Source: Eublepharis macularius (lineage: Eukaryota > Chordata > Lepidosauria > Squamata > Eublepharidae). From it: a DNA stretch of 64,000 nt. Shown one piece after another: positions 3,201-50,600 of this stretch. The number at the start of each line of letters is the position of its first letter. The first letter of the stretch is position 1. The stretch is from NCBI RefSeq assembly GCF_028583425.1, contig NC_072796.1, positions 143,477,464-143,541,463 on the forward strand, read 5' to 3'. Position numbers and translations under genes: made by a program. Under the pieces are notes generated by a model. It was not told where the DNA came from. It made no database searches and saw only the letters and a list, made by a program, of their open reading frames with translations.

Positions 3201-6200
3201 TGCTTAAGCAAATTCCAGCAAAGGCTAAGCCGCGTGCCTGCGTGGGCTGTAAGGCATTCTCTGTGTTCTGACCTTTCCACGTGTTCTTGCTCCGCTCAGG
3301 GAGAGGATAACGGAGCCTGTTACCCACAGAGCCTCCTCTACTTGGCTTAAGTTACTGTGCTCAATGGTTGTTGTGGGTTTTCCGGGCTGTATTGCCGTGG
3401 TCTTGGCATTGTAGTTCCTGACGTTTCACCAGCAGCTGTGGCTGGCATCTTCAGAGGTGTAGCACCAAAAGACAGAGATCTCTCAGTGTGAGAGATGTCT
3501 TTTGGTGCTACACCTCTGAAGATGCCAGCCACAGCTGCTGGCGAAACGTCAGGAACTACAATGCCAAGACCACGGCAATACAGCCCGGAAAACCCACAAC
3601 AACCATCGTTCTCCGGCCGTGAAAGCCTTCGACATTACTGTGCTCAAGTTAACCAGCGTAAATGCCGTGGGCTGAAGGGACTGCTCCTCCTGCGGAGCCA
3701 CGAAGGGAGGACCAGACTCCCGGCCAGAGTCCCTGAGGCTCCCGCAGAGGGCTGCGCTTGAGGGTTGTGTGTAACCGCCCACAGACAGCCGTGAGTGAAA
3801 TGGCCTTTTGGGGCTGAGGAGCCTTTCCTAAAGACGGACAGGCAAGTCGTGGCCGGGCACCACGAGGCTATGAGCAGGGAAGCAGGGACCGCAGGCGATA
3901 GGGTTTCATTCATCTTTTGAAAAAACAATGACACTTTGGGACGTATTTCTGCAACCGAAAAAGGGCCCCATTCACCAGGACCCAAATCATGCCTCACTCA
4001 GCAGTAGGCTAAATTACACAAATTCAAACCCGGCCAAAGCATTCGTGGAGAATGGCACTCCGTTTGGGGCTACAAAAGCCCGCCGTTTGTCTCTGAAGGT
4101 TTTCTCTGTCTGCATAAGGACAGGAAATGGGAGGGGAGGGCATGGCCCTCAAGCACCCCCCTCCTGCTGGTGGCCTCCAAGCACTTTGTACTTAAGGCTT
4201 GCTTATGCACATGCTTCTGGCTAGCAGAGGACACGCTGAGGGTCATCTGCTTGGCAGAAATGGGACACCTTCAGAGGGAGGTGAGATTCCAGAAAAGGAC
4301 TGGAAGAGAAGGAATGACCAAGGGGGGCGAGGGACGGGGATTGCCTCTTTGCACCTGACTTCTGTATCCCTTTCTCTGTCTGTTGCTATGCTGAGAGTAC
4401 CTGGGCGGACCTTTTCCTTGTAGTAAGTGCTTTACTGTTCTGCATGCTGGGGGGCAAGGCAGCATGGCGTAGCCCCTAAGGAGGACTCTGCAGAGGAAGG
4501 CACGGGCAACCCACCGCTGCCTCTCACTTGCCTTGAAAGCCCCCTGATGGGGTCACCATTAAGTCGATTATGACTTGATGGTGTGCGTGCACACACATGC
4601 ACACACGCATGTTCTAAATGCTGGTCATCATTCTCCGTACCACATGAGCCTCCACCATTTGCACACAGCAGTCAAAACGGGCACCAAGTGTAGTAAGCTG
4701 TTCCCATGGTAGTGGGAGACACGGGCGCTCGGAGGAACCTTTGAACAGCAGCACAACAGGGAAGCCAGGAGCGCTGGTCCGCTTGGTGGACAAGTCCTGA
4801 ATAGACCAGCTGGTGGCAGCACACTAAAGGGGATGATAGAGAGGAAAACCCTCTGAGGGTCCAGCAGGCCAGGGGAGTGGGGGGGGGCGTCTCTGGGCAC
4901 AGTCTCAGGGTAGCTGCTGGTGCACAGGCATGCCGGAGGGCTGAAATGGAGCAGGGTGCGCAGGAGCATTCTGCCACTGCTTTCAATTCCCACAGTTATA
5001 TAGGTCACCTAATTCAGCATTTCTTGGCCCAGAATTTAGATTTCCTCAGTGTGGTATAGCAGTCAAATAATTCAGCTGCAATGCAGCACTTGGCTAGTTT
5101 AAATCGCAGGACTGCCATGAGCTCCGCAGGGGTCCCTGGGTCAGCCACTCCCCTCAGTCCCAGCTCCATTGCAGGAATCGCAACACTGACTTGGTTCACC
5201 ACACTGGGTGTGGCACTGATCTGTCCAGAAGGGCGCTAAACAAATGAACCGTTGTTGTTGTTGCTAAATCTTAATTGCTGTTTTCATTCATAGCTCACGC
5301 AGTCTTGTCCTCACCCGCCATGACTTCCCAGTGTAGTACATAACAATGGTGAGAGAAAGTAGAAACTATTGGTAGCACCAGGTAAAACAGCAGGATTTGA
5401 GTCCAGTGGCACTTTTGAAATCAACATGTTCAGGGTACGAGCTTATGTCAGAGCTCCCTTCTCTAGCTACCTGAAGAAGGGAACTTTGACTCTCAAAAGC
5501 TTGTACCCGGAATACCTTGTTGGTCTCTAAGGTGCCCATCTTCCTTGCTTGCTTTCTCACTCGACTCCTCCGACCGGTAAGTCATGAGTAGTGTTCTCTG
5601 TGGTGCCACAGGATTCAAATCCTGCTATAGAAACTATTGGGAAGTTGCTTTCCTGCTGGTGGAATGAAGTTTTCTGGGGGCTTGCAGAATTGTGAAAACA
5701 GGTACGCTGTGCTCTGGAGGAAGCACTCACCGCTTCGTGGGAAACAGTCATGATTTTATGCTTATCCCCAGGTTGTGTCATTTGCAAGGTACTAAATTGC
5801 TCTAGGTCTGTAAGAAATCCAGTCCCAGCTGCTTTTCCCCCTGTTGTATCAACTAACTCTGAAAGGTAGTTGTGAATTTCCTGCATTGTGCAGGGGGTTG
5901 GACTAGATGACCCTGGAGTTCCCTTCCAGCCCTATGATTTTGTGTTCATGCTTCTTCACACCAACCCTGCAATGTAGATCCAATTACAGTTAATTTTAGT
6001 GGCAATCCTGGGCGCATGGCAAGGCTTCACATCTCCTAAGCAAGAGAGCCAGGGCCCAAGAGGAGAGTCCACCGTGAGTGCTTACTGCCCCATCAACTGA
6101 GCAGAACCCAGAATGAAATGAATGTGTTGTGCTACCATCAAATCCTCCTCCTGGGGCACCATAAAGCATGCCAGTGGTCACCATAACACCCCGTCTTCCC

Positions 6201-9200
6201 CCCTCCTTCCCTTTGAAATATTTTCCCCAGGGAGCATCGCAGAGCTCTTGAAAGGGTGGGCAGGGGGGCACACAGCATACCTTTGCTCCTTTCCCTGACC
6301 ATTTATGCCTCAGACCGCGGGAGACACTTGGGAAAGGGGCTATTCATGCCCCAAGTGCAGAGGTAGAGATGGGGCCACATTCACTCGTAGTCTAGGGTCC
6401 ATCTGGCCAACTGGCACAATGCCAGCTCCCCTCCAGCACAAGACAGAGACCCAGGCTCCAGCTGTTACACCTAAAGCTTTGTTGGCTTTGTTGAGATGAC
6501 TCTCTATGGAGGACCAGAAAAGAAACTGCTGCTCAGCCATCTCTTGCAGCCTGGCCTGAAATCACAACGATCAGGCACACACCAAAGTCGACAGAGGTTT
6601 GCTCTGCAGAGGTAGCGACCACCATATTCACACCCACAGAACACACAGAAAGGATACCATCTCCTGCTTGCCTGAGTCCTCCTGGAGTCAGGATTTTTGG
6701 TTTCCTAGAAAGCGAGAGTCCGCTACACGGCACCATCCCGAGATGACTGTGTGGGCAACTTGTCACCATTTGATTGTAAGGGGGTGGGGTGGGGGGTTAT
6801 GGGCAGCAAACTGCTGCAACTTCTCCAAGTCACTGTTTGGGCCCCTGAGAAAAAGTAGGGGATTTCCCAAAGCCTGCCTCCGCCCTGCCTCCTCCTCTTC
6901 ATGTGGACCAGCTGGAGAGAACCAGCTGCCACCTGGAGAGGTCCACCTTTCAGTCCAGCCATCTGGAAATCAGCTCAGCAGAATTCTTAGGCAGCCGCCT
7001 GGCTGCTTGCCCGCCTTGTCAGTGGGGGGCTCTCCACAGCAGGCACTATTCACCCACCATTTCCTTGGGAGAAGAGGCAGATTTCCCAACAGGGGACTTG
7101 AAGGTGCAAATGGGGACCGCTGCCTGAATGCTGTACCAGGTGCCTTCCCATTTTTCCATTTGTTCCTTCTCAGTTTCTCTAAGAAAGAGGTGCACTGTAA
7201 CGCTTGGGGGCACATACGCACCCCACACAGCAAAGACTGACCCACAGACAAAAACTGGGGCGCGTGCGCACATGCACACACATGCCCTGTTCTCTCTGCT
7301 GTCACCTCCTTGACCCCCCCTTCCAGCTTTTGCTGCAGTGGTTTTGAACATCTGTGATTCCAGGCTCAAGGGTGGTACAACCCCCAGTATTAGACTCCAC
7401 AAGAGGAAGTCAGTGCCTAGGGGACAAGTGGCAGGGGGGAGGCTGGGAAGGAGCCACGCGTGGGCTCTCCTACTCCTTCACACTCACTCCCCGCTTCATT
7501 CGCAGGTTGCTATAAAGATCATCTCAACGGCAGACGCACCTGTAGAATATACCAAAAAGTTCCTCCCAAGAGAAATCTACTCCCTCAACGTTACCTACAA
7601 GCACTTAAATGTTGTGAGTCTCTTTTCTGCTCTTTTTTGGGGGTAGCCAGTCTAGGGTACCAGTCTGAGTTGCACTAGGATCCAGCAGGCCTGAGTTCAA
7701 AACCACACACCATTATAAAAAGGTGGTGGTGAGGATAAAATGGAGGGAGAATTGTACGTGCTGCCTTGAAGTCCTTGGAAGAAGGACACGATTCACAGAA
7801 GAACGCACATTTTATTTTCTTTATATGCCTTTCCCAGTGAGATTTAAGGTGGATTGCACAGCGAAACTGCAACATAAATCCATGGCACGAGACATCGAAT
7901 AAGCAAAGTGGTAGTACTAGAATTACAGCAATCTGAAACGAAGCACAGACTACTAGGCACACTCCATTAAGCAATGCAACAGGGTCCTGTAAGCAGAAAA
8001 GAAGGCAGTGAGATCAAGCAAGTCCGGTCAGCAAGTACATCCGATATACAGAGATCTAGTTCAGCCATGCTGTGTAGGAAGCCACGCGTTTCGATCCCCC
8101 CCTCCACCTCCAGGAGTGAATGGGAAGCTGAGCTCTGCAGGCACCTAAGGGGGCAGCAAGGCCCCCCCACACACACAGCCTGCTTTAGTACAAGAGGCCA
8201 GGCTGAAGGGCTGGGGCCTCAAGTGGAAACCGGGGGCAAGGCTATGCCCGTTGGTGATGCCAGCCAGCCCCACAGAATGGCTCAGGTAGACAGTTCAGGG
8301 CTTTCTGAAAGACGGTCATCTGCAGTAGTCTGACCTGATTCCACAAAAAAGGAAAAATCAAGACTAACTTTTATCCCTGTGGAGGGAGTGGGCTCTCGTG
8401 CCCAAACCAACAAACTCAAAAGAGTGGCTGAAATTTCCTCTTCAGTGAGCTGCACAATAGTTAGTTATTGATCGGCAGTGACTCCTCCGAGAGATTCACA
8501 AGATCCGATGGCAGCACTGAACGCAGAAAAAAAGCTGCCCCTCCCCCCAGCAAAACTGAACATGCTGAGTTTGCAGCACGCCCTGCTCAAGGGCCAGAGA
8601 ATGGCGCCCGAGAACACCGAGTGCCAGGTGCAAAACGAGAAAGGGAGTCTGCTCCAGAAACAAGCCCCTCTTGTGCGCCTTTTCCACCTGGCAGACCCTC
8701 TTAATCTGGGACATACACTTCAGATTCGTGTACCTGCAAAAGGCATAAGACATAATAATAATAACAACAACATTTGATTTATATACCACCCTTCAGGACA
8801 ACTTAATGCCCACTCAGAGCGGTTTACAAAGTATGTCATTATTATCCCCACAACAAAACACCTTGTGAGGTGGGTGGAGCTGAGAGAGCTCTGAGAGAGC
8901 TGTGACTGACCCAAGGGCACCCAGCTAGCTTCAAACGGAGGAGTGGGGAATCAAACCCGGCTCTCCAGATTAGAGTCCCGCGCTCTTAACCACTACACCA
9001 AACTGGCTCTCTGCAGCATTTTGACTTAAAGAACACTTTTTCTTAATAAATAGCATTATGTCCATTGCTTCTCTGGTGAGGGATTCAGGGCGAGTCACCT
9101 CTTCACATGAGCAAAGGTCTATTAACCATTCCGGGGCCCAACAGCCCCGATGAGCTAAGGAGGGAGTAGGATCCCAGCTCCATCGTCGCCCTTGGGTCAG

Positions 9201-12200
9201 CTGGCAGAAGAGGCAGGCGGATCTGTCCCCGTTTCCCTTCCTTGTACTCCAAACTCTCTAGGGCAAGAGCAAGCGGGAGCGAAAGCACGCAAACTCCCTA
9301 ACCCAGTAAATATAAGAAGTCACTAACCTCTGTTCCAAGGGACTTCCAGCAGAAGGTGATATCCACACACATCCTGTGTGAAATACTTTTGAACTCACTC
9401 GTATAACAGGAACCGTACCATAGCACCGCACGTGGAACCTAGAGAGCCACACCTGCAATTCCCATCGACCAGAAGGGCCACACCATTGCTGTGTGCCTTG
9501 CACACACCACACCACCTTAAAGATGCAAAAACGAAATGCCAGCCTTTTAATTACCAGGGTTCTTCTGAGCATGTGAGGGGGTCTTTCTCCACCTCTGGGA
9601 GTTTTGTTTCCTGGGTCAGCATTCCCCAGTGGTATGACTCACCCTACCCCTCATTCATATTGCATATTATATACAGAACTCCTGAATCAGCACAGCCTTG
9701 ACACAATCATCGTGGACGAATTACTTTGCATTGAACTTTTTGAAAAAAATCTTGGGTCACTCTATTAATGATGCAACTATTCTAATTTCTAAAGAAACAG
9801 CCCCCTTTCCTTGTACATGGCATGAGTGTCGTGAGGAACGGTGCTCAGAAGAGCCACAGGGGGCTCCTGAGCCACTGACCCATCCCCCTGCCATGTCCCG
9901 TGACCCCTGCCCAGATGGGGGCCTCATGCGAGCAGATTATACACGCGCAGGCTGAAGACCGCAGATTCAGGCCAGCAATAGCTGGTCACTCGGAACTTTT
10001 CACACGCGCGGCCTCATTCTGAGCCTTTAGGCAAGTGGCACTGAGTTCTCCTACTCGGGACCTGCCCCCAAAGCATGCATGTGGCGCAGTGGATTTTGAA
10101 TGGGCCAGGCAAGCCATTTTTCTTACCCACCCCTGCCCTCAGGACGTGCTGCATGAACCTGACTGGCCCTCTCCAGCACAGACAGGGACACAAAGCCAGA
10201 GACGCCGAGGGCCCGGCTGCCTGCAATCTGTGGGGCTGCCTGAATGTGGGGGGGGGAGCAGGGCTGCTCCTCAAGGCCAGGAGACTGGGCCGGGGCCGGG
10301 GGAGAGCGGGCTCTGTGGGCACCGCTCAGGAAGCTTTGGGTCCTTTGCAGGTTCAGCTCTACGAAATGTACCGGAACAGCAAGCGCACTTACCTCGTCCT
10401 GGAGCTAGCCTCCCGGGGAGACCTCCTGGAGCACATCAACGCCACCTCCGACAGGAGGGAGTACCCTGGGCTGGAGGAAGAGGAGGCACGAAGGCTCTTC
10501 CGCCAGATCGTCAGTGCTGTTGCACACTGCCACAACGTTGGCATCGTCCACAGGTGAGGGGGAAAGGGGGGCCAGTGCTAGGCTGAGGGACGCCTGCAGG
10601 GTACCCGGTCCGTGCTCCGATGCCCTCTCTGAAGGCCAGGTACAGGGGGGCCAGCCAGGAGGGGGCCAGCTGGCCTTGGGGCAGAACCAGCCTCCGCCTC
10701 TGCCCTGCCAAGGACTCTCCGTGGCTGCCAGAACCCACAGGAAGGGTTTTTCTCTTTCATTCCCTGGCCTGCTACGCCTCTGACCTTGCAGGATAGAGAC
10801 CGGCTCCTTGTGTCTGACCAAGGGAGCTCTGCCTCTCGAAAGCTCCTGCCTGGGAGATCTAGTTGGGCCTTTTAGGAGCCCCTGCACCCCGATCTGGCTC
10901 TTGCTCCTTTCAGTCTTTTGACACTTGCATCCATGCTGGCAACTGCCACATATCAGAAGGATTCCGAGTATTGCTGAAGCACAAACAGGCGGAGACGTCT
11001 AAGGGGTGACCCAACACAGTGCAGACGTATCATTCCCTTAATGGTGCTCTTCGGTCCCTGGCAGCTTAGAAAATGTGCCCTGCCTGCCTAGCCCACTCTG
11101 CTCCAGCATGCCCGGCTCCCTGCACACCTCAAACATGACCGTCAAAATAAACCACGGTTCAGCAGAAGCTAATCCATGCAAGCATGCAGAAAGTGGGCTG
11201 CATGGGGCAGGCGGCGCTTGCATCCCTGAGAGCGAGAGAGTGTAGCTTGCCCTTAAATGCTGTTCAGGCTCATTTGCCATTTGTTTCCCCCAGAGACTTG
11301 AAATGTGAGAACATTTTGCTGGATGAACGTGGCTTCATTAAACTAACAGGTAAGTTTTCCTCCACGGACGGGGAGGGAGCTGGTACGCATCACCGCTTTA
11401 CATTAAGCGGAGGGCAGGTTAAGAGCCTGCCAAATTTGCATGCCGCTTCCAGAAGCCCCTGCAAGCAGCACCCCCACCCCAACAAAGTTGTTTTGAATTG
11501 CTAATCTCAAAACACACTTTGTGCTCTCCGTGTAAGCAGGGGTGGCTTGGGATATTAAAGCGGCCCTGGAGCCACTCAGGGCAGCCCAGAGCCATCTCTT
11601 CCCCACCAGTTTATCCTCATGACAACCACCCAGAGAGGTAGGTTCAGTGGAGAGGGTGTGATGGGCCCAAGGTCACCCAGAGAGCTTCATGGAAACACGG
11701 GGATTAGAACCCAGATCCTACTCCAACCGCTCCTCCGCGCTGTCTCCGCTGCCAGTCTTCATCATCCAATGGCTCCCATCCCCCAAATACTGGTATTTTC
11801 AGAACTACTCTGACCCAGACTAAGCATTCTGAAGGTCCACCCCATCGGCCGTACTGGCAAGAAGATCCAAGCCGCATCCCCTCGGCCCAGCTGACTGACC
11901 CTTCCTTGCAGATTTTGGGTTTGCCAATCGCTATTCCCTGAAGAATTCCCTCATGAGCACATTCTGTGGCTCCGTGGCCTACACTGCCCCTGAAATCCTC
12001 ATGAGCAAGAAGTACAACGGGGAGCTGGCTGACCTGTGGAGCCTGTGAGTGTGGGGCATGCCGGGAGCCCAGCCCGGGGGGGGGGCAACTGGGCTGCAGG
12101 CTCTTCTCTGAGCTGACCAGCAAGCGCCTTCCTCCAGGGACCCTTCTTGGCAGCCGAGCAGCTCACTGGCGACCCCGGGATCCATTCCCAGAGGAGGCAG

Positions 12201-15200
12201 CTGTAGCGGCAGCAGTCTCTCTCAGAGGGAGCCCTCAGGAGCTCCGTCTGCGATCTGATCCTTTGCTCTCCTGTACAGTGGGGTGATCCTCTATGCCATG
12301 GTGACAGGGAAGCTCCCCTTCAAGGAGCGCCAGCCACACAAGATGATCCATGTGATCAAGCAGGGACTGGCCTTCCGGCAGCCGATCTCACCAGGTACGG
12401 TAACCGATGCAGGCGGGGAGGGGGGGCTCTTCTCCCTCCTGGGCCAGGCCACGGGTCAGATGGGCCTGCTCAGGGAGAAAGGAGGGCATGGGCCAGGCCA
12501 AGAGACTAGCAGCACGACGGCGATACCAGCTCTCTGCCCCACACTTGCTCAGGATAAAAGGTTTCATACAACGGGTATCAATAAAGGAGGCCACACTAAC
12601 CCGCAGCAACATTTCAAAGAGCAGCACACAGCCGCTGCCAGTGAGAAGCGAGGAAGTCAAAGGAGTGGGTGGGAGTCAACAGGTATCCACCGGAGGCCAG
12701 ACCAAAACAGGAGAGCCTTTGCCTGGTGCCTCAGACATCAAGGAGAGGCCAGCAGGTGGACGTCTTTAGCGGGGATGGCGGTGGTGGAGTCCCCAAATAG
12801 GGTGCAGCCACAGGGGGAAAACCCTCTCTGACAGTGCCTCCCCCGACTGCCAAAGGGAAGGGCACCCCAATGCCAGGCCTCTGGTGGTAGTCCAGGTGGT
12901 AGTCCAGGTGTCTTTTCTCACTGTGACACTGAGAGATCTCTGTCTTTTGGTGCTACACCTCTGAAGATGCCAGCCACAGCTGCTGGAGAAACGTCAGGAA
13001 CTACAATGCCAAGACCACGGCTATACAGCCCGGAAAACCCACAACCACCATCGTTCTCCGGCCGTGAAAGCCTTCGACAATACATCGATACTCCAATACA
13101 GTTTTTCAGTACAAAAATATTTACCTAAACTATGTTATTACCACACTACAGTCAAAGTGGTGTGCGGTGAATTACATGCACGTGAGATTTATTTCACTGG
13201 CTCCTGGAAAGTTGTTAGTTTGGTGGACTATAAACCGGCCCAAGGAAGTGGATGTTACACGAAACAAGCCGATTTTGCCAGCCGCTTGTAGGGCGGGGGG
13301 ACCCTTGTGTGGTCCTTGTTACATCTTTTTTGTTCCACTTGCAAGAAACAAAAGAAATAATTCAATTATCAATAAGAGACAACATCAGCTAGGAACACGC
13401 GTCCATACTTACCTGCTCTTCGTCTCCACGAGGGAAGTAGGGAGAAGGACGGCATTTCCCTGCAGTTTGGTTTCCTTTTTCGCTTGAAAGAGAATCACTT
13501 TGAACTTAGAGGAGTGTCTCCCGTGTTATGGACAAAAAAGAATTCACAACATTTTCGGTCCAGAGATTTTGATAGGACTACGCTGGGAGACCTGTGGAAG
13601 TATCACGGTCTGTTGTTCATTGAACTGTTTGTGTGTATATATATATTTATAGTATTATAGGTGACTGAAGACTAATTGTTGTTAAAGCATAGTTTAGATA
13701 GATATTTTTGTACTGAAAAACTGTATTGGAGTATGCTTACTATATGAATTATTTCAGTCTTTAAATTTATTTTCACTGTGGGTAACATTCCCCCCCCCCA
13801 GGAAGTTATATAGGTGATATAGTAGGTTACTAATCCTTGGGAACGCCTCTGTTGTGGTTAAATCCCAACACACTGGCATGCTGACTGAAGTCAGCAAAAG
13901 CTGCGCTGAGCGAGGGATGGCCCGGTCTGCACTGGAATGCAACTCCAACCCCAAACTGCAGACCTTGATGTTTAAGAGCAGCTCAGCCTCATGCTGTGTC
14001 CATTGAAAGGGAGCAAAGAGGATTCCCCCTCCAGGTCCCGGGTGGTGGCAGCGTGCCCTGGGGCCATTGCTTCCGCTGCTTCCGCAAAACAGAGTGGCAC
14101 TTTGCAGAGGGCAAAGGGCAGGGCTTGCTGGGACTTCTCCCTCCCTCGGCCCCCTTGTTGGGACCAACAGAGGAGGAGCAAAGGATCAGCAGAGAGCCTC
14201 AGGACCAGGCACCAGATGGGCTCTAGTGGAAATCACACCAAAAGGCTGCAGGCATTTCACGGAGGAGCTGACTCAGCACAGCCCACCACGGGCAGCAGTG
14301 CCCCAGTGCATAGCTTCAACACACACCGTGTATTTATTCCACACTCCACAGCCTCCAACACAGCGCAAAGGGCTCTGCACCGTGTGGCCAAAGAAGCACA
14401 CGCCGCGCCAGACCCCTTGGCTGTTCCAGACAATTCTGGGGCACAACCCTTTAATTGCAAACACAATGAAGGCAGGTCAGGACATCTGAAAGACTAAGAG
14501 GGAAACTACACGAGACGCCTGGGCATGTGTCGGGTGCTGCAAAGTTCTCTGGGTAATGTAGTCTTACAAAGAACAGCTGCGCCATGTGATTCTTTGTTGG
14601 GCTTTTCGTGAGAGAATCTGCGATGTGATTCTCCACCGAGGAGAAAAGGAGTGGGGAGGATTCTTTCTTGCAAAAAGCCGCCCTGGATTTCCTGCCTCCT
14701 GTTACGTCCACCACCATCGTCCCCTGAGCTCCCAGAGGAAAGCCTGAGCAGAGCTTTTTGCAAGAGACAGGAAGATAATCTCCCCCACCGCTCTTCCCCT
14801 GGTAGAGAGCTGCATGGAGCGGCTGTCCTTTGTAAGACTACACTACCCAGGGAACCTTGCGGGACCCGACACGCATCTTGTGTAGTTTGGCTCTAACAGA
14901 CTGATTGAAACACAAACTGGGCACAGCTGCCCGTGACTCACCTAAGTCATTGCAATGGGGCCCTAAGACAAAGCCCTGGGAACCTGCAGCATATCGACCA
15001 CACCCTAAGAATGCGGCCACCCTAAGCCACTGCTTGAGTTGCTTGCCCAAACAGATGAGCTCTGGCCTGGGAGGAGGGGCCACTTTGGTTCCAGACAGAG
15101 CAAAGGACGGGATGAGGAGCCCTGTTCTGGTAGGCAGGCGATGCCCGGGAAGGAGAGCTGAGCAACGGCCTTTTCTCATCAGCTCTCGCTTGACCTTCCA

Positions 15201-16800: not shown

Positions 16801-17200
16801 GCCGCCGCCGCCGCCCCGACCTGGACCGCCCCGGCCCCGGCCGTGCAGGGCGTGCGCCCCGGCCGCTGCGCGCCCCTCTCCCTGCAGCGCGGAGCGCCGA
16901 GACCTCCGGCTCGGCGCGGCCGCCTGGCGCCGCCTCTGTGCACCTTGAATATTACTCGCAGCGCTTCGCTGTCCCCACTCAGTGCGCCCCGTGGAGCTTC
17001 TTCGTCGCGCCGCGCGGCGCCCGGCCCGAGCGCGCTGGCGCAGGCCCGCAGCCCCCTCGCAAGGAAGGCGCCGCCGCCGCGGGCTCCCTAGCCAGGCACT
17101 TCAGCCGGGGAGGCAGGCAGGCCGGCCGTGGGCCGGAGCGGGGCGGCTCTCCCTGTCCTTGCTTCTCCGGCGCCGCGGCCCTTCAAGGGGCCTGCAGCAC
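16290..17200. other. CpG-dense block over the TSSK5 last exon and 3' flank
   Basis: G+C and CpG rise sharply at 16.29 kb, cover the terminal TSSK5 exon (16352-16800) and continue about 400 bp past the stop. A CpG island at a 3' end is unusual. It could be an intragenic or antisense promoter, or simply biased codon use in an Ala/Pro/Arg-rich tail on a GC-rich microchromosome. No polyadenylation signal for TSSK5 is obvious between 16.8 and 17.5 kb. Confidence 0.5.
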
Positions 17201-18700: not shown

Positions 18701-21700
18701 TCAGACCGCCTGCCTGTCATCGCTGCCAGAGGCAGCCTGCTGGCGCTCCTCCTCTTCCCGATCCAGGCGCTGCAGCTGCTCCTCGACTTCTGCAGGGACC
18801 TCCACCTCCAACAGGTTTTCCATCCCAGGGCCTGGCTCCTCGCCAATCAGCACCTGCTCAAGGCAAACAAAACCAGAGGAGATGGCCCCTCGTTCCCAAT
18901 GCCCGGCATGTGCCGGGGCAGAGGCGGAGCTGCCCCACAAAGGGAGAGGCAGACTTCCCAAAGCAAGGCACAAAACAGTCCCTGGCTGTGCTCAGGCTCC
19001 CCGAGCATCCGTGAACAGCCACGACTGAGCTAGAGCCGGACTTCCTCGCCTTCTCACGGGAGCTGCTTTTCCTCCCCCTCCTCCCCCACTGCACATCTGA
19101 CATTGTGCCCCCCCCATTCAAAGCAAAGCAGGCCCAGGCCAGAGCAGACACAATTCCAGCACGGAAGCCCCCAAGACTGTCCCTCCCGCAATGACTGCTG
19201 CAGGCCCTCAAGCACGGGGCTGAGGGGGACGTGGCACTGCTTCCGTGGGACCCTGCTAAGGGGTGCGTTCACAAATGAGAGCCCCCCCCAACCACCCTGC
19301 TCATAGAGCTGCACTCTCTATAGGGCATTCTACACCCACTCCCCCACCCCACAAAAGCCAGGATAGGTGGTTGGGGCTCCCCCCTTACCAGTATCAACTT
19401 TTCACAGGCTGCCAGGACACCTGGGTCTGCTTCCCATTTGTGCAGCTCCCGTAGGATAAAATAGGCGCCCCTTTCTCGTACCAGCTGCCGCCCCGGCTTC
19501 GTAGCTGTGAGCTGTCAAGGGATGCAGGGAAGACCACTCACTCCTGAGGGGGACATCTGCCCACGGGCATGAGTCCACAACCAAGCAGCCCAACGGGGTA
19601 CTGAACAGGAGGGCACTTATGGTTGTTGTGGGTTTTCCAGGCTGTATTGCCGTGGTCTTGGCATTGTAGTTCCTGACGTTTCGCCAGCAGCTGTGGCTGG
19701 CATCTTCAGAGGTGTAGCACCAAAAGACAGAGATCTCTCAGTGTCACAGTGTGGAAAAGATGTTGGCAGGTCATTTGTATCTACTCAGGAGGGGTGGGGT
19801 TGAGCTGAGTCATCCTGTAAGAGTTTCCCAGGGTGTGGAATGCTAATGGCGGGAGGCTTCACTGTATCCTGAGGAGGTTCTTTTGCATATGGATTGGTGC
19901 TTGATGTGCTAATCTTCTCTGCAGGGCTATTGTCGGGTGTAGAGTGTTTTGTTAGCCTGGTGTTTTTCAGAACTGGAAACCATGCTCTGTTCATTGTTAA
20001 GGTTTCTTCTTTCCTGTTGAAGTTTTGCTTATGCTTGTGAATTTCAATGGCTTCCCTGTGCAGTCTGACAAAGTAGTTGGAAGTGTTGTCCAGTATTTTG
20101 GTGTCATGGAATAAGATACTGTGCCCTGTTTGAGTTAGGCTATGTTCAGCCACTGCTGATTTTTCAGGTTGTCCAAGTCTGCAGTGTCTTTCATGTTCTT
20201 TTATTCTTGTCTGGACTTTGTCAGACTGCACAGGGAAGCCATTGAAATTCACAAGCATAAGCAAAACTTCAACAGGAAAGAAGAAACCTTAAGAATGAAC
20301 AGAGCATGGTTTCCAGTTCTGAAAAACACCAGGCTAACAAAACATTCTATCCCTGACAATAGCCCTGCAGAGAGGATTAGCACATCAAGTACCAATCCAT
20401 ATGCAAAAGAACCTCCTCAGGATACAGTGAAGCCTCCCGCCATTAGCATTCCACACCCTGGGAAACTCTTACAGGATGACTCAGCTCAACCCCACCCCTC
20501 CTGAGTAGATACAAATGACCTACATCTTTTCCACACTGTGACACTGAGAGATCTCTGTCTTTTGGTGCTACACCTCTGAAGATGCCAGCCACAGCTGCTG
20601 GCGAAACGTCAGGAACTACAATGCCAAGACCACGGCAATACAGCCCGGAAAACCCACAACAACCATCGTTCTCTGGCCGTGAAAGCCTTCGACAATACAT
20701 CAGGAGGGCACTTACACCATCTTGCTGGTGCCAACATTGGGGTGGGAAGGTTTTGGACCATCCTAAAATTTCACCAGGCACAGAGAATGGTGGGTCTGGC
20801 TGGGCCTGCCTGTTTATGCTCAGCCAACAGCCCAGTTCATGTATCAAAGCGGTCAAGAGGAGCCCGGGCTGTACCCCTTCGGAGAGTTGGGGGCTGGAGG
20901 AGCATCTCGAGTCGATGTTCCTCCATATGTAACATGCCCTCCGTGCACAAAACTTGAATGCCAGTGAGAAAGGCTCTAGCCCAACTTTTATTCGTTATAT
21001 TTTGCTCTATTCACAGCCCTCCTTTCTCACTAAGGTTCCAGTGGATTCCACAGTGTAAAACAATGCACAAAAATTAGAAACCATGCAAAAAAGTATCAGA
21101 CGTGATAGGTCAAACTGCAAAAAAATGGAAGTGCCGCAGAAGAAAACAAAGTAGTCAGAGCAGAACCTGCTGAACGATAGGAGAATGGGTGAGGCACGCA
21201 TACTCCGCTGGAGCTCAGTTACTACTGGGAGTTATGCATTCTGCACCAACTGGGGTTTCCAAGTAGCTTTCAAGGTCAGGTCCACGTAGAGTGCAGTACA
21301 ATAGTCCAGTCCAAATGCTTCAACAAAATGCACAGTCCACCGAATCAAAGCCTGCAGCTCAATCCAACAGGAGCAGCCAAGAAGCATGGCTTTTGTTGAC
21401 CCCCATCTGAATATAATGTAACCCACTGGAGCCACGAGCACCATCTCTGCCCCATAGCCTGGCAGCAGACTGAAAAGGGTCCGGAGCAGACCTGGAGCTG
21501 GTCCACCGCTGCTCTCTCTGTCTCTTTGCCCAGAAAGGGCAGATTGCAAACTGAGTGGTACTTGGCCACATCATGTTTCTGTAGGGATGGTTCTTTAAGT
21601 AGCGGATGGATACCTGCCTCTTTGCGTGCCCCCCCCCCCCGGGAAGGCGCCTTGAGCCACTGATTGATTTATGATGGGCATCAAGGGCTCATTAGTGCAG

Positions 21701-31460: not shown

Positions 31461-32103
31461 CAACGACGACTTTTTGGGCCAACCGAAACTCCTTTTGCTG
31501 ATCTAGCAGGGGGAATCGGGTCGTGTCAAACTCGGCACGCCAAAGGGTGCTGCTTGGAATATTGATGGAATTGCAAAGGGGACCCGTTTCGTGTCTCTCT
31601 CAGGACAATCCCAAGAGCCGCCTCGCTGGAGACGGAATTGCGGCGCGGCGCGCCCGGTGCGAGGCAGCAGGCGCGCCTGGACTCGGTGCCTTCTGAGAGG
31701 TAGGAAAACGGAGACGGCGAAGGGAGGAAACAACTTCTGGAGTAAAGGGAAGAAAGTGTAGTCTTTGTCCAGAAACTGGCATAGAGTCGCGGTAGATAGG
31801 ACTGCCGGCATATCTGGATACTAAGCGAACTTTATAACCTTGGAAACACTGAACTCTTTAATAATGAATTATAAAACACATTACAGCATATTGTTGCCAA
31901 CATTATTGACAAGGGAACAAAAATGTCCTTAAAACGTTTTATTTGTCTATAGCATAAGACTTTTTTTCCCCAGTGTTCCTTGACATTTCCTAATTTTTCA
32001 ACTGGAAAAATTAAGAGAAGTCCTTGTATGTTTGATTGTGAAAAAACTGGCCTTAAGATGCGTTTGATTCATTCTAAAAGAGGGAAGAAATCATAGGACT
32101 TTT

Positions 32104-32354
32104 GGTTGTTGGGGGTTTTCCGGGCTGTATTGCCGTGGTCTTGGCATTGTAGTTCCTGACGTTTCGCCAGCAGCTGTGGCTGGCATCTTCAGAGGTGTAG
32201 CACCAAAAGACAGTCTTTTGGTGCTACACCTCTGAAGATGCCAGCCACAGCTGCTGGCGAAACGTCAGGAACTACAATGCCAAGACCACGGCAATACAGC
32301 CCGGAAAACCCCCAACAACCATCGTTCTCCGGCCGTGAAAGCCTTCGACAATAC
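32104..32354. repeat. Penelope-like fold-back insertion (family A), 14-bp target duplication
   Basis: Inverted arms meet near 32214 with almost no spacer. Direct repeats ATCATAGGACTTTT lie at 32090-32103 and 32355-32368. The left arm starts at GGTTGTTGGGGG, while the right continues a further 30 nt to CTTCGACAATAC. It is in the probable first intron of the ZNFX1-like gene. Fossil, non-coding. Confidence 0.88.
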
Positions 32355-33249
32355 ATCATAGGACTTTTGTCTAGTGCTCCCCCAATTTCCCAGTTTTTCT
32401 GTTAGGAAAGTTGGGGGAAAGGCCGGGGGGGGGGGATGTTACCCTGAGGCCTTCACATCTTTAGTCCAGAGGGATCCTGCCTACAGCACCTTCCCTTCTC
32501 CCCAGGCCACCCCCCCGTCATCGCTCATTGGCATCGGTTCCTGCCCAGAGAGCAAGAGGTGGGGGTCTCGGCTGTGGAGCTGTCAGAGGTGGCCAAACAG
32601 AGGCAAAGTTGCTCCAGGTTGGAGGAGGCTGCCACCTGAGGGAATGTCAAGCCTTGCCCATTGCCCTCGGTTGACAAAGAGATCTTGCCAGAAGGCGGGG
32701 TACCAAATTTTCAGCTGCAATGCCCAGCGTTTGGGGTGAGTGGAGAGGCCGGTGTGAACTAGCAAGCTGGGGCAGCCACCTCCCCAGCTCCTCCTTACCT
32801 GTTGGTGTTACCTCACCCCTCCCTAATCCAGGACTAAGGAGATGGGTAACCTTGAAAGGAACTCGGGTATTAATTGTTAAACGTTCTGGATGTGGAGCGA
32901 GGCACGCCCCGAATTTCACAAAGTTCCCCCTGTATGCCCTCTCCCTCTTTGTGCTCAAGTCCCCACGGCAGCGGGCTTCCGGGCACAGCCTTCGGCCACT
33001 TCCCTGCTCACCTGGCATCATGGGTGCCCAGGGAGCGGATTGGGCATGGGGAAGGGGGCTCAGCCATCACGGGGGGGGAGCACAAACAGATTGGTCTCCA
33101 TGGTAGCTGGCATCCTAAGCTCTGCTGGGCCACTTGGGTGGGGCTGGGCATGGGGGGGGCAGTTGACTTTGCATGTACAATGGGTGCCTATGGGCTATGC
33201 CGTTGTTTTTCCAGGTGTAATTTTCAGATGCTCCTAGGGGTTTTAACCA

Positions 33250-38600: not shown

Positions 38601-41600
38601 GATTAACAACATTTGTGGTAGGGTATGAGCTTTTGTGAGCCACAGCTCACTTCTTCAGCTGTGGCTCAGGAAAGCTCCTACCCTACCACAAATGTTGTTG
38701 GTCTTACAGGAGCTGCTGGACTCCTGCTCTTTCTACGGCTGCCTATTTTGATCTTTGCTCCACGTTGGTTTCCTTACAACAGCCCTGTTTTTGGAAGCAT
38801 TGCCATGATGTCATCTTCTATTTCGTGGTCGTCCCCCTGCATTGCTGCAGACTTTCTCATAACTAGTTTAGATGATCTTTGTGGAAAGATCACAATTAAA
38901 GTGTTCCTAGACATTTCATTGTGGAGTTATAAGGGGAAAGATGCGGGCCACAGGTGGCAATAAGTGCCTGAGGTTGAACAACTGGAGCAAAAACTAGATA
39001 AGATGGAGGTGATGCTGGCTGATGGGGTTATGGCTTTAAATGGATTGTACTTCCTACTATTGATGGTGTGCAGATTTCGCTGAAAGGCTCTTAAGAGCTT
39101 AGAGGTCTTGCTGGATCTGGTCTGTTGGATAAGCAGGTGCCCCTGGCAGCAAAAACATGCTTTTTCCATGCTACACCTAGTTAGGAAGCTGGCTTCTTAT
39201 GAGCAGACATTTGATCTGGCCGTGCCAAGCTATGCTTCAGTAACGTCCAGACTAGATTACTGCAACACACTGTACATAGGGCTGCCTTTGGAGACAATCC
39301 AGAAACGGCAGCTAGTTCCAAATGTGGCAGCCCTTTTGTTATCGGGCCAGCTGGTGGAATTCATAGAATCATAGAGGTGGAAGGGGCCATACAGACCATC
39401 TAGTCCAACCCCCTGCCCAGTGCAGGATCAGCCTAAAGCATCTCTGACAAGTATTCATCCAGCCTCTTCTTGAAAACTTCCAGTGAGGGGGAGCTCACCT
39501 CCTCCCTAGGCAGCTGATTCCACCTTTGAACTACTCTGACCATGAAGAAGTTTTTCCTAATATCCAGCCGGTACCTTTGCGCATGTAATTGAAGCCCATT
39601 GCTTCGGGTCCTACCCTCTGCTGCCAACCGGAACAGCTCCTTGCCCTCCTCCAAATGACAGCCTTTCAAATATTTAAAGAGAGCAATCATGTCCCCCCTC
39701 AACCTCCTCTTCTCCAAACTAAACATTCCCAAGGCCCTCAGCCTTTCCTCGTAGGGCTCAGTCTCCAGACCCCTGATCATCCTCGTCGCTCTCCTCTGCA
39801 CCCTCTCGATTTTGTCCACATCCTTTTTGAAGTGAGGCCTCCAGAACTGCACACAATACTCCAGATGCGGCCTGACCAAGGGAGTATAGAGAGGGGACTA
39901 TGACCTCCTGCGATTTTGATGCAATGGCCCTTTTGATATAACCCAAGACTGAGTTTGCCTTTTTTGCCACCGCATCACACTGACTGCTCATATTTAGTTT
40001 ACAGTCCACTCTTACCCCAAGATCCCTTTCACATATACTACTGCCCAGAAGTGTATCCCCCATCCAGTATTTGTGTTTCCCATTCTTGTGGCCCAGATGT
40101 AATACTGTGCACTTGTCTTTGTTGAATTGCATCCTATTCACAGCTGCCCACTTATCCAGAGTATTCAGGTCTTGTTGAATTTTAATTCTATCTTCTTGGG
40201 TGTTTGCTACTCCTCCCAATTTGGTATCATCAGCAAATTTAATGAGCAGCCCTTCCACTCCTTCATCCAGATCATTGATAAAAATATTGAAAAGTACTGG
40301 GCCCAAAACCGAGCCCAGCGGCACCCCACTGGACACCTCCAATCTGATGAAACACCATTGACCACCACTTTTTGGGTGCGGTCCTCTAACCAGTTCCCAA
40401 TCCACCAAACTGTCCTATAGTCCAGTCCACAGTCTTCCAGTTTGCCCATCAGAATGTCATGGGGGACCTTATCAAAAGCTTTACTGAAGTCCAGATAAAT
40501 CACGTCACTCCTCTTCTGGGGTCTCATCAGGTTTATTTCTGGGTCCAATTCAGGCTCTTGATGCACACCCCTGTCTGTCTGTCTACTTTATTTGTACCCC
40601 AATGGGGACTCGATATGGCTCACATCATTCTACTCTCCTCCACAGTTTATCCCCCCACAACAACCCTGTGAGGTAGGTTAGGCAGAGAGAATGTGAGTGG
40701 CAGAGTGGGGAGTCAAACTGGCTCTCCCAGATTCTGGTCCAACACTATCCATTACGCCACTTCTAAAGCCGTTCAGGTCCTTGGGCCGTGTAGTTGGGGG
40801 ACTGCCTCTCTCTGCATCCTTCCCAGCAGGGTCTCCCGTCAGTGGCCCCCTTGTCCGAGGCACGTCCGCCCACAGTCTGGTCTGGAGCCCCTTCAGGGTC
40901 TGCCCCGGGCCTCTGGAGCGGCCTCCTGTCAAGGGGCTTCCCCTCCTGACTTGCCCGTGAGGCTGCAAAGCAGGACGGTCCCAGAGCTCTTTCAGAGCCA
41001 TCGGAGCCTGGGCAGAGGGGGGATCACCATGGGGGGGGGAGCATAAAGTGAGCTGAGACGGGGGTACGTGTTTCATATCTGCTGTTTTTAATATTTGTTG
41101 CATAAAATTGTTTTTACATTGTTGTTACCCGCCTTATGTCCTGAGATACTCAGGAAAAAGGAGGGCATATAAATACGTTCAATAAAATAAATAGTAGTCC
41201 GGAGAGCTCACAACGTTCTTGTGGTTCCTGCCCTCAAGGAAGAAGCTCCGCTGGTGGATCTGACGGCCGTGAGCCCCTTTTGCTCTCCCCTTTGGACTCC
41301 GGAGACATTTCCCGGCCTGGATGAATCACAGATCTTGGCCATCCGGATGGCTCTGAGCAGAGAGTTCGTGCTGATCCAGGGCCCGCCTGGCACCGGTGCG
41401 TACAGGTCACGCGGAGCTTCCAGCTGCCCCCCCCAGCCCCCTGCTCTCTCTGCCTGGCAGGAATCCCTCACCCACTATCAGGTGCGGAGCCTGCCCTGCC
41501 GAGAGGGCACCTGGGGATGATGCCCTCCCTCCGTGACGTGCTGAGCTGGCCAAGGCAGAGATGGTGTCCTGGTTCCTTTCCAGGCAAAACATTCATCGGA

Positions 41601-44600: not shown

Positions 44601-47600
44601 CCTCTGTTCCCAGGACGACTGCTGCTGCTGGGACGCTTCTTGCAGGCACTCCTTCCTAGCCCCCACTCATTTCAGTGCGGAGGATTTCTCTCTAACCGCC
44701 TCCCTCCGTGGTTCCTGCGCAGATGCTGGGCTCGCTGAGGCGCCGGAAGGGAAGCATTGCCTGCTGCACGGAGCTGCTGGAGCTTCTGCCCCGGGGCATC
44801 CTCACAGGGAAGGAGCTGGAGGCGGAGATCACCGAGGACCATCTGTGGGTTCCAGAGGTAAGCAGAAGGGGGGCAAAAGGGGGACCCTCCCCAAAGCGCA
44901 TCTCAGGCTGAGCCGTGGGTCTCTCCTTGTAGGGAGGGCTGCTGCAATGGCTGAAGATCTACCCCCCGAAAGAGGAAGTGCGGCCTCGGAGGCACAGGTC
45001 CTGCAGGAGACCAGCAGGTAAGGGCAACTCAGAGGGACACCCCCTCCCTGTCTCCTCCCGGGCCTTGCAGGCTGGGCCGTTCCTCTTCGCTTGGAACTCC
45101 TGGTCTGCCCAGCACTCTTCTTCAGACGTTCCTGACCTGGCACTGCCTGGTAGCCATTGCAGTGACTGAGCTGCACTGGGCAGTCTGACCACCAGGCCGC
45201 TGATTTCCTTAGACCTGGTCAGGGATCCTGGGAGTGCCTCTCAGACCCCGAAACACAAAGCTGATCGGGGTGATGGTGTGGGTTGTTGGGCCCTCGGGCT
45301 GGGCCCCTGGAAGCACCACCCACCTTTGGTCTCAAGTCTGATTGCAGGGCCAGTGGGGGGCAGGAGCGGCTGAAGAAGGGCTCCCCACAACTGGGTACTT
45401 GTGGGTGTGAGCCTCAAAGGAGGGGGGGGGGGAGAGGCCAGTCCCGAAGGAAGGCTTGGCTCGGAGGCCGGCCACAACACGCCCTGCATGGTTCTGCAAG
45501 GCATATTTTGGCCCCGGCTGTTTCCACCCTCCCCACTCAGGTGGGTCAGGTACCTCCTTGCTCACAGGCAGGGAAAAGAGGCTGAGCAAATGCCCGAGGC
45601 TGGGTAGGAAAACCACCTGTCTTTCCCAGGTCCCAGTTGACTGCCTTGGCCCAGACCCCGCCACAAGCCATTCACGCCAGACTGAGGCAAAGAGCTCCCG
45701 TGGGGGGGGGGGTGTCTGCCTCTGCCCCAGCTGAGAGCTCATCGTTTCTCACTTCAAAATCCAAATGCTGTGGGGTGGGGGAGTCAGGGAAGAGCCCTCT
45801 GCCTCCCCCCCCATGCATGCTAACGCGGCCCAGGAGGCTGCAGCACCTTCACTGGGAGCCACACAGTCGAGGCCCCGCGGATGAGGCAAAGGGGGAGCGC
45901 TGGCAGGGGGACGAAAGTGGGGATGTCGTCGTGTTTGGTGACATCAGCTGCTCCCTCCTTGACTGGGCAAATGCAGTGCTTGGACCGTGCTATAAAAATA
46001 AGGCTCCTAGGTAGCATCAATGACTGTGCATTAGAGAGCTGATCACAGAGCCAGCCAGAGGAGCAGCCAGGCCTGACTTGGTTCTGAGTGGGGCACCAGG
46101 CCTCATGAAAGATAATGTTGCACCAACCGCAACGCAATGCTATTCATGGAAAAGAGTAGGAGTCCAGTGGCACCCATAAGACTAACACAACTAGTGGGAG
46201 GGTAGGAACTTTCGCCAGCCACAGATACAGCTAGCGTTCTTGGCAATGGAAAGTTACTCCTGAAGTCCAAAACAGTAACACTGGGCTTCAAAAAAGGGAT
46301 CTTTACACAAATAGGAAGCTAGTTGGAAAGGAGGTTAGGTGCATAGCCGTCTTGGTCTGTAGTAGAACAGCAGGATGCGAGTCTGGTAGCACCTTTGAGA
46401 CCCGCCAGATTTCCAGAGTGTCAGCTTTCGAGAGTCAGAGCAGAACAGACACGGTGCCTGTCTGAAGAAGGGAGCTCCGAGAGCCAAAACAGACGAGATG
46501 CCCGACGAGTGGAGGGCACATGTCAGTTTCCCGCAAGGTTCCACAGGAAGTGTAGTGAGAAAGATCTCTCTTCTCCCTGGCAGAGGTTCCTTCTCTAGGC
46601 ATCTAGTCCAGTCCACTCGGCTCCCGCTCACCGCAGCCAGCTCCCCTTGCTCCCTGAAAGCACCCCAGAGCCTCCTCACCTGCGAGGAGCAGCCGAGCCC
46701 CTCCAGCGTGGCCTCAGCGGCTTGAGGCAGAGAAAGGGAAAGGGTGGCGGCTCCGGCTCAGCTGGGCTCAGAGGCAGTGCGCACTGCTGGGTGCACGTGG
46801 CACGAGCTCCATGCTGGCTCCCTGCGCTCACCCCAGAAGAGCGAGGATGGGTGCAATTGGTTAAAGTTGGTTAGTCTTAGAGGTGCTACTGGACTCTTTA
46901 CTATTTTGCAACTACAGACTAACGCGGCTAGCTCCTCTTGTCTGTGCAGGCACAGAGCTCCTCCGATACGATAAGGACGAACGATTCTTGGATGATGATT
47001 ACAGTGATGATGATGAAAAGGTGGAGGATCTACCAGGACTCAAGAGCAAGTTTGCCTACATCCTCCCTGCCAAAGAAAGGTACGTGCGTGGCCTGGCTGC
47101 TCCCTGGGGCTGGACCCTTCTGGCTCAGTGCAGGGCCGGGGGCTTGTGGAAGAGTGAGGGCGGAGCTGGCCTTCCCGCAAGCCCTGGCCTACCTGGTTTG
47201 GAGTGCTGCTTTGGCCCCTGGCATCACGACGGTGCACATCCTGGCATGGCACCCTAGTTCAAGGTGGAGCCCAGAAAAGGACAATGGCCCTGGCAGGCAG
47301 GCAGGCAGGGAAGGTTGGTCCACTCGGCCCAGGGAAAGAGGTGGGCAATTTTCAACTGTTTCACAGACCCTTTGGAAGGAAGAAGGGGAATACGGTTGCC
47401 CCGCTGGTCCTGGGTGGCAGTGCAGGGAAACAGCTTTGGATGCGTCAGTAAACACTTGCAAACAGAAAGAGCCGCTCGGGATGTGAAGAAGGGCTGCCTG
47501 GCCAGACCCTGGCATCTGCCTGTGTCCTGAAAGGCCTCTGGGACAGCGGGACAGCAGCACTGCCTCAGCAACCCAACTGGCCACTTCCGGGCCTCCCATT

Positions 47601-50600
47601 TCCCATTTGCAGAGATGTGTGCTCGAAGGAACTATGCGGGGGCTCCAAATTATTTGGCCCCTGTCTATGCAAATGCGGAATGTGCTCGCCCCACCCACAA
47701 GCTGCTTCGGCACCCAGTGCCAGGAGAAGCAATGGGGCAGGAGCCCCACAGCACTGCCGGCACGCTGGAACTGGCTCTTGGAGAACTGGGGCTCTGGAGC
47801 AGTGGGGCTTGCATTGGCGGCTGGGGCTCTGTCTCTGCCGGGCTTTTCCAGTTGCTGTCCTCTTATTAGGGACCGGGTTGCAGAGGCAGTTCAGAAAGCA
47901 CCAAGGCTGAGGGCCTTTTGTACTCTTTTTTTAACCAGCAGGGTAGGTTTCTCCTGTGGGGTAGACCTCAGGCTGAAGTTGGATCCCGTTGCTTCTGACA
48001 CGCAATCCCTCTGGGGGTGCTTTCCAGGGGACCCCCGTGACCGTTGAATACTGTTTGAAGTGTGGGACTCAGCCTTTGGGTGTTTGTAATCCATTTTGGG
48101 CTACGAAGGAAAGAGAAACGTACTGTTCAAAATAAGTTTTTAATATCTAGGAAGGATTTGCATGTCGGGAACTGGCCAAAGTACTTAAAGGAAAGATTTC
48201 AGGAGAAGGGGCTGGAACGAAGCTGGCCGTTTATAAGACCAGGGGAAGCTCAGTTGCTTGTGACCTTTTGGCTGAAAGGGGGCTGTGCGTGTGAACAAGG
48301 TGTGGGGCAGTTCTGGCTGTGGCAGTCCTTCCAGGAGCCAGCCCCATTGGCAGGGGGGACCCCCACCCCCAGCTATTCTTCCACACCAGCTAAGAACTAC
48401 AGGAATGGCATCGGACAGTAGCTTGCACAAAAAGTTCTGCTAGGAAAAACCAGTCTCGGAATGTTAATCGATACTGCAGTGCTTTGAGGCATGTGCAGAG
48501 GTCTTTCACCAGAGCAGCCCACACCAAGATGGGGTGTGTATGTAGAAAAGGCCTTCTAGCCTTAGGGGCTGCAACATGAGACCCCATCTCAAAGCAAAGC
48601 GACCCCCCCCCCCCGGTCACCACAGTTGCTCACGGGCTGCCTTTTCCCACCTGCTTCCCAGCCCTTCTCAGACTTGGATGAAGTCCTGCTTGACGGAAGG
48701 AGACATCATGAGCTCGGAGGAGGTCTCAGAGATCCAAGACCTCTGGGCGCTGCGGCTGAGGGACCGTTGGCGACTCTACAGGTGCTCCACGGGGACTGTG
48801 GGGGCAAGGCTGGGAACAAAGCCCCACTCTGGCGGCGGCGGCGGTGGGGACTTTGCTTCTGGAAACGGAGAGCGGGGAATGGTGACCCTGCACTCTTTCT
48901 GGGCTGGAGTGGGATCAGGCTTGGCCCATTCCTTCGCACAGGCACCCTTGTCTCGGAGCAGGAGTGCTGGAAACTCATCCTGGGGGCTTCCAGGGGCATC
49001 TCTCGCACTGGCTGCTTCTCTGCCTCCATCTTCCAATGCCCTTGGCCAGGCCTGGCTGGCAGCCTTGGCTGTGGGAGATGACAGTGAAATGGGCGAAGCC
49101 GCTACACCAGGCAACATCGATTCCAGCAGCTTTTGTGAGTCAGGGACAAACTAGACAGGATGGCGTCCTTGTGGTTACATTCCTCCCTGCCTCCCCGGCC
49201 CGACAGCTCTTTCAGCACTTGAGAAAACACATGGGGTGGGGGGTAAGACAAGAGTATTGTGGGCCCACACAGTCTTCTCTATCTGCTCTCTGCCCTGGCT
49301 CCAGGAGGTGGGTGGCAGCCTACAGGAACAAGCTGGTGGCAGTCCTGGTGGAGAAGCTGGAGGTGTACGAGAAGGACGCTGCTCAGCTGCAAGAACTGAC
49401 CTTCCAGGAAGACCTGAAGATCCTCCAGCATAGCCGGGTCATCGGGATGACCACAACAGGTGAGAAGGCTGTGCTGTCTCTCCTACGATCCCTTTCCAGC
49501 AGCTGAAAGGGGGGGAAAGAAGCATAGGACGGGCCTGGTCCCCCCTCTGCTTGCCTAGACCTGATCTTTGGGATGGGGATTCAGGTGGAGCTGGACGTGG
49601 TTGACACGGTGCCGTGGTTGGACCACTTTTCCCTGAAGCCTTGTCTGGATGCACCAACCCCCCCCCTCCATGTGCGTGGGCAGCAAGCACATTTTAGCTC
49701 ACCCATGGAGACTGATGGATCCTATCGGTTTCCAAAATACTCAGCGGGATCCGAAGCCCCCTGGCAGTTTGTTGGATGTGCTGGTGGAGGATTGGCATGC
49801 CCGCCTCTCCGAAGCCATTGACAAAATTGCTCCCCGTTGCCCTCTTCACCTCCTTGCCCGGTTAGTCCCTTGGTACACTGAGGAGCTATAACAGATGAAG
49901 TTAGAGCTTAGACAGCTTGAGCCAGTGTGGCGGTGGGGGCTCAATGAAGAAGCAAGAACAGCTTATAGGATGTATTGTCGAAGGCTTTCACGGCCAGAGA
50001 ACGATGGTTGTTGGGGGTTTTCCGGGCTGTATTGCCGTGGTCTTGGCATTGTAGTTCCTGACGTTTCGCCAGCAGCTGTGGCTGGCATCTTCAGAGGTGT
50101 AGCACCAAAAGACAGAGATCTCTCAGTGTCCTACTGAGACACTGAGAGATCTCTGTCTTTTGGTGCTACACCTCTGAAGATGCCAGCCACAGCTGCTGGC
50201 GAAACGTCAGGAACTACAATGCCAAGACCACGGCAATACAGCCCGGAAAACCCCCAACAACCAGCTTATAGGATGTTTATGAAAATCTCGGAGATGGCCA
50301 CGAAAGTGACTAAGGAGGAGTTCTATGCTGCTTCTGTTGCATCCGCAAGCTCACGCCCGGCACAGTTGTTTCATGTGGTTCGGTCTTTGACCTCCCTTTC
50401 TCAGAGAGATCACCAAATTGTGAATTCGAGTATCAGCTGTGAGGCTTTTGGGAGCTATTTTGCTGGTAAGGTCTTGTCTCTCCAATGCAACCTGCCGGCC
50501 ACGGTTGATACAAAAATGGAACTGGAGGTCCCTTGGCCGTCTTCTGGTTCTGTATTAGATGAATTCAGCCCACTCTCCCAAGATGAGGTTGACAGGATCC

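Follow-up and report, generated by a model that had tools for sequence, protein, structure and literature searches.

The question raised by this stretch of DNA is how a retroelement comes to insert as inverted dimers whose two arms end at two different, fixed places. The window analysed, a whole stretch of 64,000 nucleotides from Eublepharis macularius (contig NC_072796.1, positions 143,477,464 to 143,541,463), contains five copies of one Penelope-like element (PLE) family, here called family A, at 3364-3638, 12911-13086, 19619-20701, 32103-32357 and 49969-50263. Direct reading and blastn both bear out the original prediction that four of these five copies are head-to-head inverted dimers, each with a single target duplication and hence inserted as a unit. 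The duplications, first put at 13-14 bp, measure 13, 14, 15 and 15 bp when the 1-5 nt of overlap with the aligned element ends are counted, so that their upper limit had to be raised. The short arm of each dimer ends at CAACAACCA(T), at reference position 2224-2225 (site B); the long arm runs on to GACAATACA(TC), at 2257-2260 (site A). The additional sequence of the long arm, which we call the tail, is found on the right in three window dimers and on the left in one. The predicted arm offset of about 30 nt is indeed fixed and amounts to 32-36 nt, the same in both orientations.

Does this arrangement hold outside the window? In the genome (2.24 Gb, 72 contigs) one family-A 20-mer has 35,702 exact places, and a 45-mer spanning the tail has 3,283, a lower bound with no mismatch allowed; an exact 23-mer of the tail gave no match in viral_contigs. 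A sample was drawn from the first 100 places of the 20-mer (contig C1, 1.3-8.5 Mb) and consists of 60 fetched stretches covering 82 of them. Selection was blind to tails, and the 18 omitted places were left out mostly since their spacing resembled copies of places already included. A second DNA search used a query designed to favour two-tailed dimers, and 40 loci were scored among its 987 candidates: 20 were fetched, one was window dimer 3, and for 19 the judgement relies on query coverage alone. Arms were paired when they faced each other and shared a target duplication of 7 bp or more, which gave 56 rows, all labelled as one tailed plus one untailed arm. Twelve rows were dropped, 11 of them repeats of insertions already counted (segmental duplicates, all one-tailed). 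The twelfth, L062, was labelled one-tailed by the script; it was dropped because its duplication match is only 7 bp and its left arm continues past site A into the open reading frame (ORF), its outer end lying beyond the sequence inspected. Two loci stand outside the pairing list: L009, with inward-facing rather than head-to-head arms, and L017, where a 421-nt spacer separates one tailed and one untailed arm with no duplication of at least 7 bp. The resulting 44 unique dimers comprise 4 from the window, 21 from the C1 sample and 19 from the two-tail query.

Every one of the 44 unique dimers has exactly one tail; none has two and none lacks a tail. If ends were chosen independently, a one-tailed dimer would have a probability of at most 50%, and the 21 one-tailed dimers out of 21 in the C1 sample, window dimers excluded, a probability of at most 5e-7 (3e-8 for the 25 out of 25 of C1 sample and window together). 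The 19 query-derived dimers needed a tail, which leaves the other 25 as the basis for the absence of tailless dimers. No two-tailed dimer was confirmed among the 40 loci of the two-tail query, 19 of which, judged by coverage only, each show one tail. The only one of them to span both query tails, L061, proved on sequence to be a one-tailed dimer with an extra internal pseudo-long terminal repeat (pLTR) running into the ORF. The tail is on the left in 21 dimers and on the right in 23, and the short ends fall at reference 2223-2229 in 40 of the 44 (the others are at 2203, 2219, 2231 and 2232). Target duplications are 12-15 bp long in 43 dimers and 8 bp in one (L077). Among 1892 mismatched flank pairs, 40 reach 8 bp and none reaches 12 bp (maximum 11), and a chance origin of the duplications is therefore excluded. 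The tabulation of short ends and duplications that the original prediction had proposed, run on this sample, thus gave clustered ends instead of scattered ones and a single duplication per dimer. These figures also bear on the idea that the arms are independent insertions lying side by side, or assembly artefacts. We found no support for it among the counted dimers; the single duplications and the mismatched flank pairs refute it for the 43 dimers with 12-15 bp duplications, and overall we regard it as having almost no chance of being correct.

Neither the kind of element nor the offset itself is new. Family A is a PLE of the Poseidon/Penelope kind, close to Anolis Poseidon. L037, a long copy fetched from this genome, contains an open stretch (P0001) of 537 codons with a reverse transcriptase domain (Pfam RVT_1, E 2.4e-12). 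On the 3' side of this domain we recognized by eye a GIY-YIG-like stretch, GVYRIPCSCGQVYIGTTKRSIQTRIKEHE; Pfam gave only a weak match to T5orf172, presumably a GIY-YIG relative (E 0.098, 13.6 bits, below the cut-off of 20). The pLTRs of family A are either inverted, with a tail of 30-40 nt on one end, or in direct partial tandem (L061 and L076), and its insertions show both target duplications and 5' truncation. The sequence of Anolis carolinensis Poseidon (PAc), as printed in PMC11167929, can be aligned with the first part of the family-A ORF. Together with the RVT_1 match, this alignment upholds the Penelope-like identity read from the window. A 31-bp tail on one of two inverted pLTRs has been reported in Penelope families of Adineta vaga (PMC3846280), and inverted pLTRs and short 3' extensions are mentioned in PMC8969392. 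According to PMC11167929, purified PAc begins reverse transcription inside the RNA at two adjacent start sites, the commonest being 111-118 nt into the ORF, and the tail is the sequence between the two. For the long end of family A (site A), the match in PAc is ORF +110-118, on a count that takes the printed CTTCGACAA as +106-114; it coincides with this commonest start, the only site to which the sections consulted give a number. The short end (site B, CAACAACC) aligns to +76-83. The fixed offset, thought to be undescribed when it was noticed in the window, is thus the PLE tail, already described and explained.

The possibly new part is the exclusivity, exactly one tailed arm per dimer. Family A resembles PAc in the alignment of both sites, in the tail lying between two starts and in a predicted hammerhead cut 26 nt past the start codon; it differs in the copy set and in the strict A/B pairing, which is not stated in the sections of PMC11167929 consulted; in vitro, that paper sees no apparent difference in start sites between strands. 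The Adineta vaga families likewise have an inverted pLTR at one end with a tail on one pLTR, target duplications (8-10 bp there) and palindromes at the junction. In contrast, the tail is termed optional in the sections of PMC3846280 consulted, which give no tail-pairing counts and prefer self-priming on an antisense template. Within the sections consulted, no statement of strict one-tailed/one-untailed pairing was found; the wording "one of the inverted pLTRs" in PMC3846280 comes near, and other papers may state it.

We propose that the dimers are accounted for by paired priming at A and B by both target ends, a reading to which we assign a probability of about 0.8. The two end sites, the single target duplication per dimer and the A/B pairing in 44 of 44 dimers are direct observations; the stagger of the cut, priming by both target strands and the mode of joining of the complementary DNAs (cDNAs) are what we infer from them. 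The element would make staggered cuts in the two target strands, about 12-15 nt apart, and both exposed 3' ends would prime reverse transcription internally on its RNA. Priming would take place at two preset sites, both early in the ORF and separated by about 34 nt. A start at site A would produce a tail and a start at site B an arm without one, and in each counted dimer the two target ends would have taken one site each. Extending toward one another, the same-sense cDNAs would be joined near their 3' ends, giving a head-to-head dimer with one target duplication. Priming by one end only would give a single copy, tailed or untailed. For the Anolis relative, cleavage and extension of both target strands, with priming by both, have been shown in vitro, and the steps beyond the first-strand start still await experimental validation (PMC11167929).

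Several mechanisms had been suggested for the offset. A fixed step in insertion does seem to set it, and of the forms imagined for that step second-strand priming is retained, in that priming seems to occur from both target ends, with a separate RNA site for each. Template switching at one defined site does not fit, as inner ends in the window and C1 sample range from reference 86 (the reference limit) to 2219, a spread that agrees with the variable inner truncation also predicted. A dimeric RNA with defined ends is not needed. In its explicit form, in which genomic dimers are transcribed and then copied, this last idea can draw on the many dimers from the dimer-like query that nearly share a centre (2114-2119), though the query itself has that centre; the wide span of inner ends and the occurrence of the same two ends in single copies make it very improbable.

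Both ends look primary rather than products of trimming, because single copies with a matching repeat finish at either. Twelve single or unpaired copies were examined, and a matching repeat beside the other end was found in five: three end at site B (L031, 13 bp; L004, 10 bp; L029, 8 bp) and two at site A (L038, 12 bp; L010, 8 bp). No adjoining matching repeat was found for the remaining seven. That the short end is a trimmed tailed end was judged unlikely, since short ends are sharp and occur in singles with repeats, two of the five repeats being only 8 bp. Outside the dimer list, the window and C1 sample contain 16 untailed and 9 tailed arms, with duplicates merged and the non-simple L009, L017, L051 and L057 included. 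Some loci are composite. L007 has a one-tailed dimer (3351-3607) nested in the untailed arm of a bigger one-tailed dimer, each with its own 12-bp duplication, and L051 has a further tailed arm beside a small dimer. The inward-facing arms of L009 share adjoining sequence and may reflect a rearrangement. Several fetched loci of C1 1.3-8.5 Mb repeat the same insertion with the same flanks, direct or inverted (L007/L013; L033, L036, L039, L044 and L048), which identifies segmental duplications in this region.

Do the two primers use one RNA or two? One possible reading, which we rate a little below even odds, is a reaction with two primers and one RNA, in which both 3' cut ends would prime the same RNA at A or B and the tail would be the footprint of paired initiation. 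Reverse transcription from B would lead, that from A would trail on the same template, and the cDNA ends would be joined where they stop. We are less sure of the same RNA molecule than of the pairing itself. At reference 2215, 41 arms carry the base A and 46 carry C. The two arms of a dimer have the same base there in 41 of the 43 dimers scored, and in 20 of 22 when only the window and C1 sample are considered (3 unscored), the latter with a probability of 6e-5 at one half. Over 2190-2222, arms of the same dimer diverge by 2.1% and arms of different dimers by 3.8%. The inner ends lie within 10 nt of each other in 14 of the 25 dimers of window and C1 sample, against a permutation mean of 3.9 (0 of 20,000 permutations reach 14). 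The untailed arm is longer by at least 4 nt in 13 dimers and the tailed arm in 4 (p = 0.049, with a post hoc threshold). The shared base and the correlated inner ends fit one template common to both primers; they also fit RNAs of one source locus combined with joining at palindromes. Many dimer centres are near a palindrome, AGAGATCTCT, at reference 2106, where the RNAs may share a 5' end or a stop.

Strict A/B pairing would be explained equally well if two RNAs were held in a dimeric, asymmetric PLE protein complex, one half presenting site A and the other site B. A PAc dimer is predicted in PMC11167929, and the shared subfamily base would follow if RNA of one source locus were preferred. The correlated inner ends are unexpected for two RNAs, each with its own 5' end, unless joining aligns them, and the correlation is also seen outside the commonest stop zone (1330/1320, 2182/2182, 2181/2184 and 2187/2183). 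We consider two RNAs somewhat unlikely. A single cDNA could also prime on itself and copy back as the second arm, leaving a protein-covered tail uncopied; PMC3846280 favours self-priming, there on an antisense template. In favour of such snap-back, many centres are near-perfect palindromes whose spacer is short or absent, and some spacers resemble slippage (L012, L015 and L016). Snap-back needs the tailed arm to come first and to be the longer, and an untailed first cDNA cannot serve as template for a tail; yet the untailed arm is the longer by 113-1038 nt in 6 of the 44 dimers (L002, L027, L007 outer, L006, L051 and window dimer 2). On account of these six we reject snap-back as the sole mechanism and hold it to be improbable overall; it could still apply to symmetric dimers.

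Several points weigh against A/B paired priming. All C1 loci lie in one region (1.3-8.5 Mb) of a single contig, in which segmental duplicates are numerous, and the 19 query-picked dimers test against two-tailed dimers only and not against tailless ones. The short ends of four dimers lie beyond 2223-2229. As for a common RNA, base sharing is not clear at two other positions: at 2131 both arms carry the minor base in 3 dimers and only one arm does in 4, and at 2166 the figures are 3 and 2. Strict pairing is not predicted by the in vitro assay of PMC11167929, in which RT starts showed no apparent difference between top and bottom strands. Finally, in L008 and in L030/L032/L035 (duplicates of one insertion), two neighbouring RNA segments with very little overlap are joined in opposite orientation, and the second end can apparently also prime elsewhere. 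These structures resemble the outcome of LINE-1 twin priming, in which the second target strand primes on the element RNA, causing an inversion whose two parts hardly overlap. The family-A dimers differ from it in that both arms cover one and the same part of the RNA and begin at two fixed positions.

The element carries a hammerhead-like core, CUGAAGA...GAAACGUC, recognized by eye. It stands at the place reported for PAc in PMC11167929, with a fold z-score of -1.39; Rfam gave no hammerhead match in the window at gathering scores or in 20500-20720, where only two chance microRNA matches appeared. Two insertions start exactly at the predicted cut (reference 2170), as would be expected if cut RNA is occasionally copied: the single copy L018 (duplicate L019), for which no adjoining target duplication was found, and L021, in its tailed arm. 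Across the genome, exact-pattern counts fall from 47,534 to 46,650 (-1.9%) in the 2-nt step before the cut site and to 45,594 (-2.3%) in the 2-nt step across it, with no clear excess of copies beginning there. Hammerhead-cut RNA as the main template is thus not supported, and PMC11167929 likewise reports that reads beginning or ending at the cut were not seen.

Table 1. Family-A copies of the window and their target duplications.
Feature	Position	Strand	Remark
Dimer 1, target duplication, left copy	3352..3364	.	TTACTGTGCTCAA
Dimer 1, short untailed arm	3364..3489	-	
Dimer 1, tailed arm	3489..3638	+	tail end GACATTAC
Dimer 1, target duplication, right copy	3635..3647	.	
Single tailed copy	12911..13086	+	no target duplication found around it
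Dimer 2, target duplication, left copy	19606..19619	.	CAGGAGGGCACTTA
Dimer 2, untailed arm	19619..20215	-	exceeds tailed arm by 141 nt at centre
Dimer 2, tailed arm	20215..20701	+	starts within ORF end (REAIEIHKHKQNFNRKEE...)
Dimer 2, target duplication, right copy	20701..20714	.	
Dimer 3, target duplication, left copy	32090..32104	.	ATCATAGGACTTTTG; end letters may partly be element
Dimer 3, untailed arm	32103..32213	-	
Dimer 3, tailed arm	32213..32357	+	hammerhead-like core CUGAAGA...GAAACGUC, by eye
Dimer 3, target duplication, right copy	32355..32369	.	
Dimer 4, target duplication, left copy	49959..49973	.	CAGCTTATAGGATGT
Dimer 4, tailed arm	49969..50130	-	tail on left
Dimer 4, untailed arm	50133..50263	+	
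Dimer 4, target duplication, right copy	50262..50276	.	

The window also contains other repeats. At 55647-55866 lies a near-perfect palindrome of 108 nt whose loop is 4 nt long and whose two borders read CCTGG; it looks like a fold-back or miniature inverted-repeat transposable element (MITE)-type insertion, not a Penelope copy. A dispersed repeat at 39356-39532, 54710-54886 and 57538-57667 is not among the Penelope matches of the window; its first two copies match in inverted orientation over 177 nt (92%), as do the second and third over 130 nt (93%). An inverted repeat at 56337-56503 has 76-nt arms, 87% complementary and 15 nt apart.

PLEs have been described as a third class of eukaryotic retroelements. 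If each inverted insertion takes one start at A and one at B, the tail would record paired priming by both target ends, and A/B pairing would narrow the models of PLE insertion. The one-tail rule, with a template possibly shared by both primers, is the part worth following.

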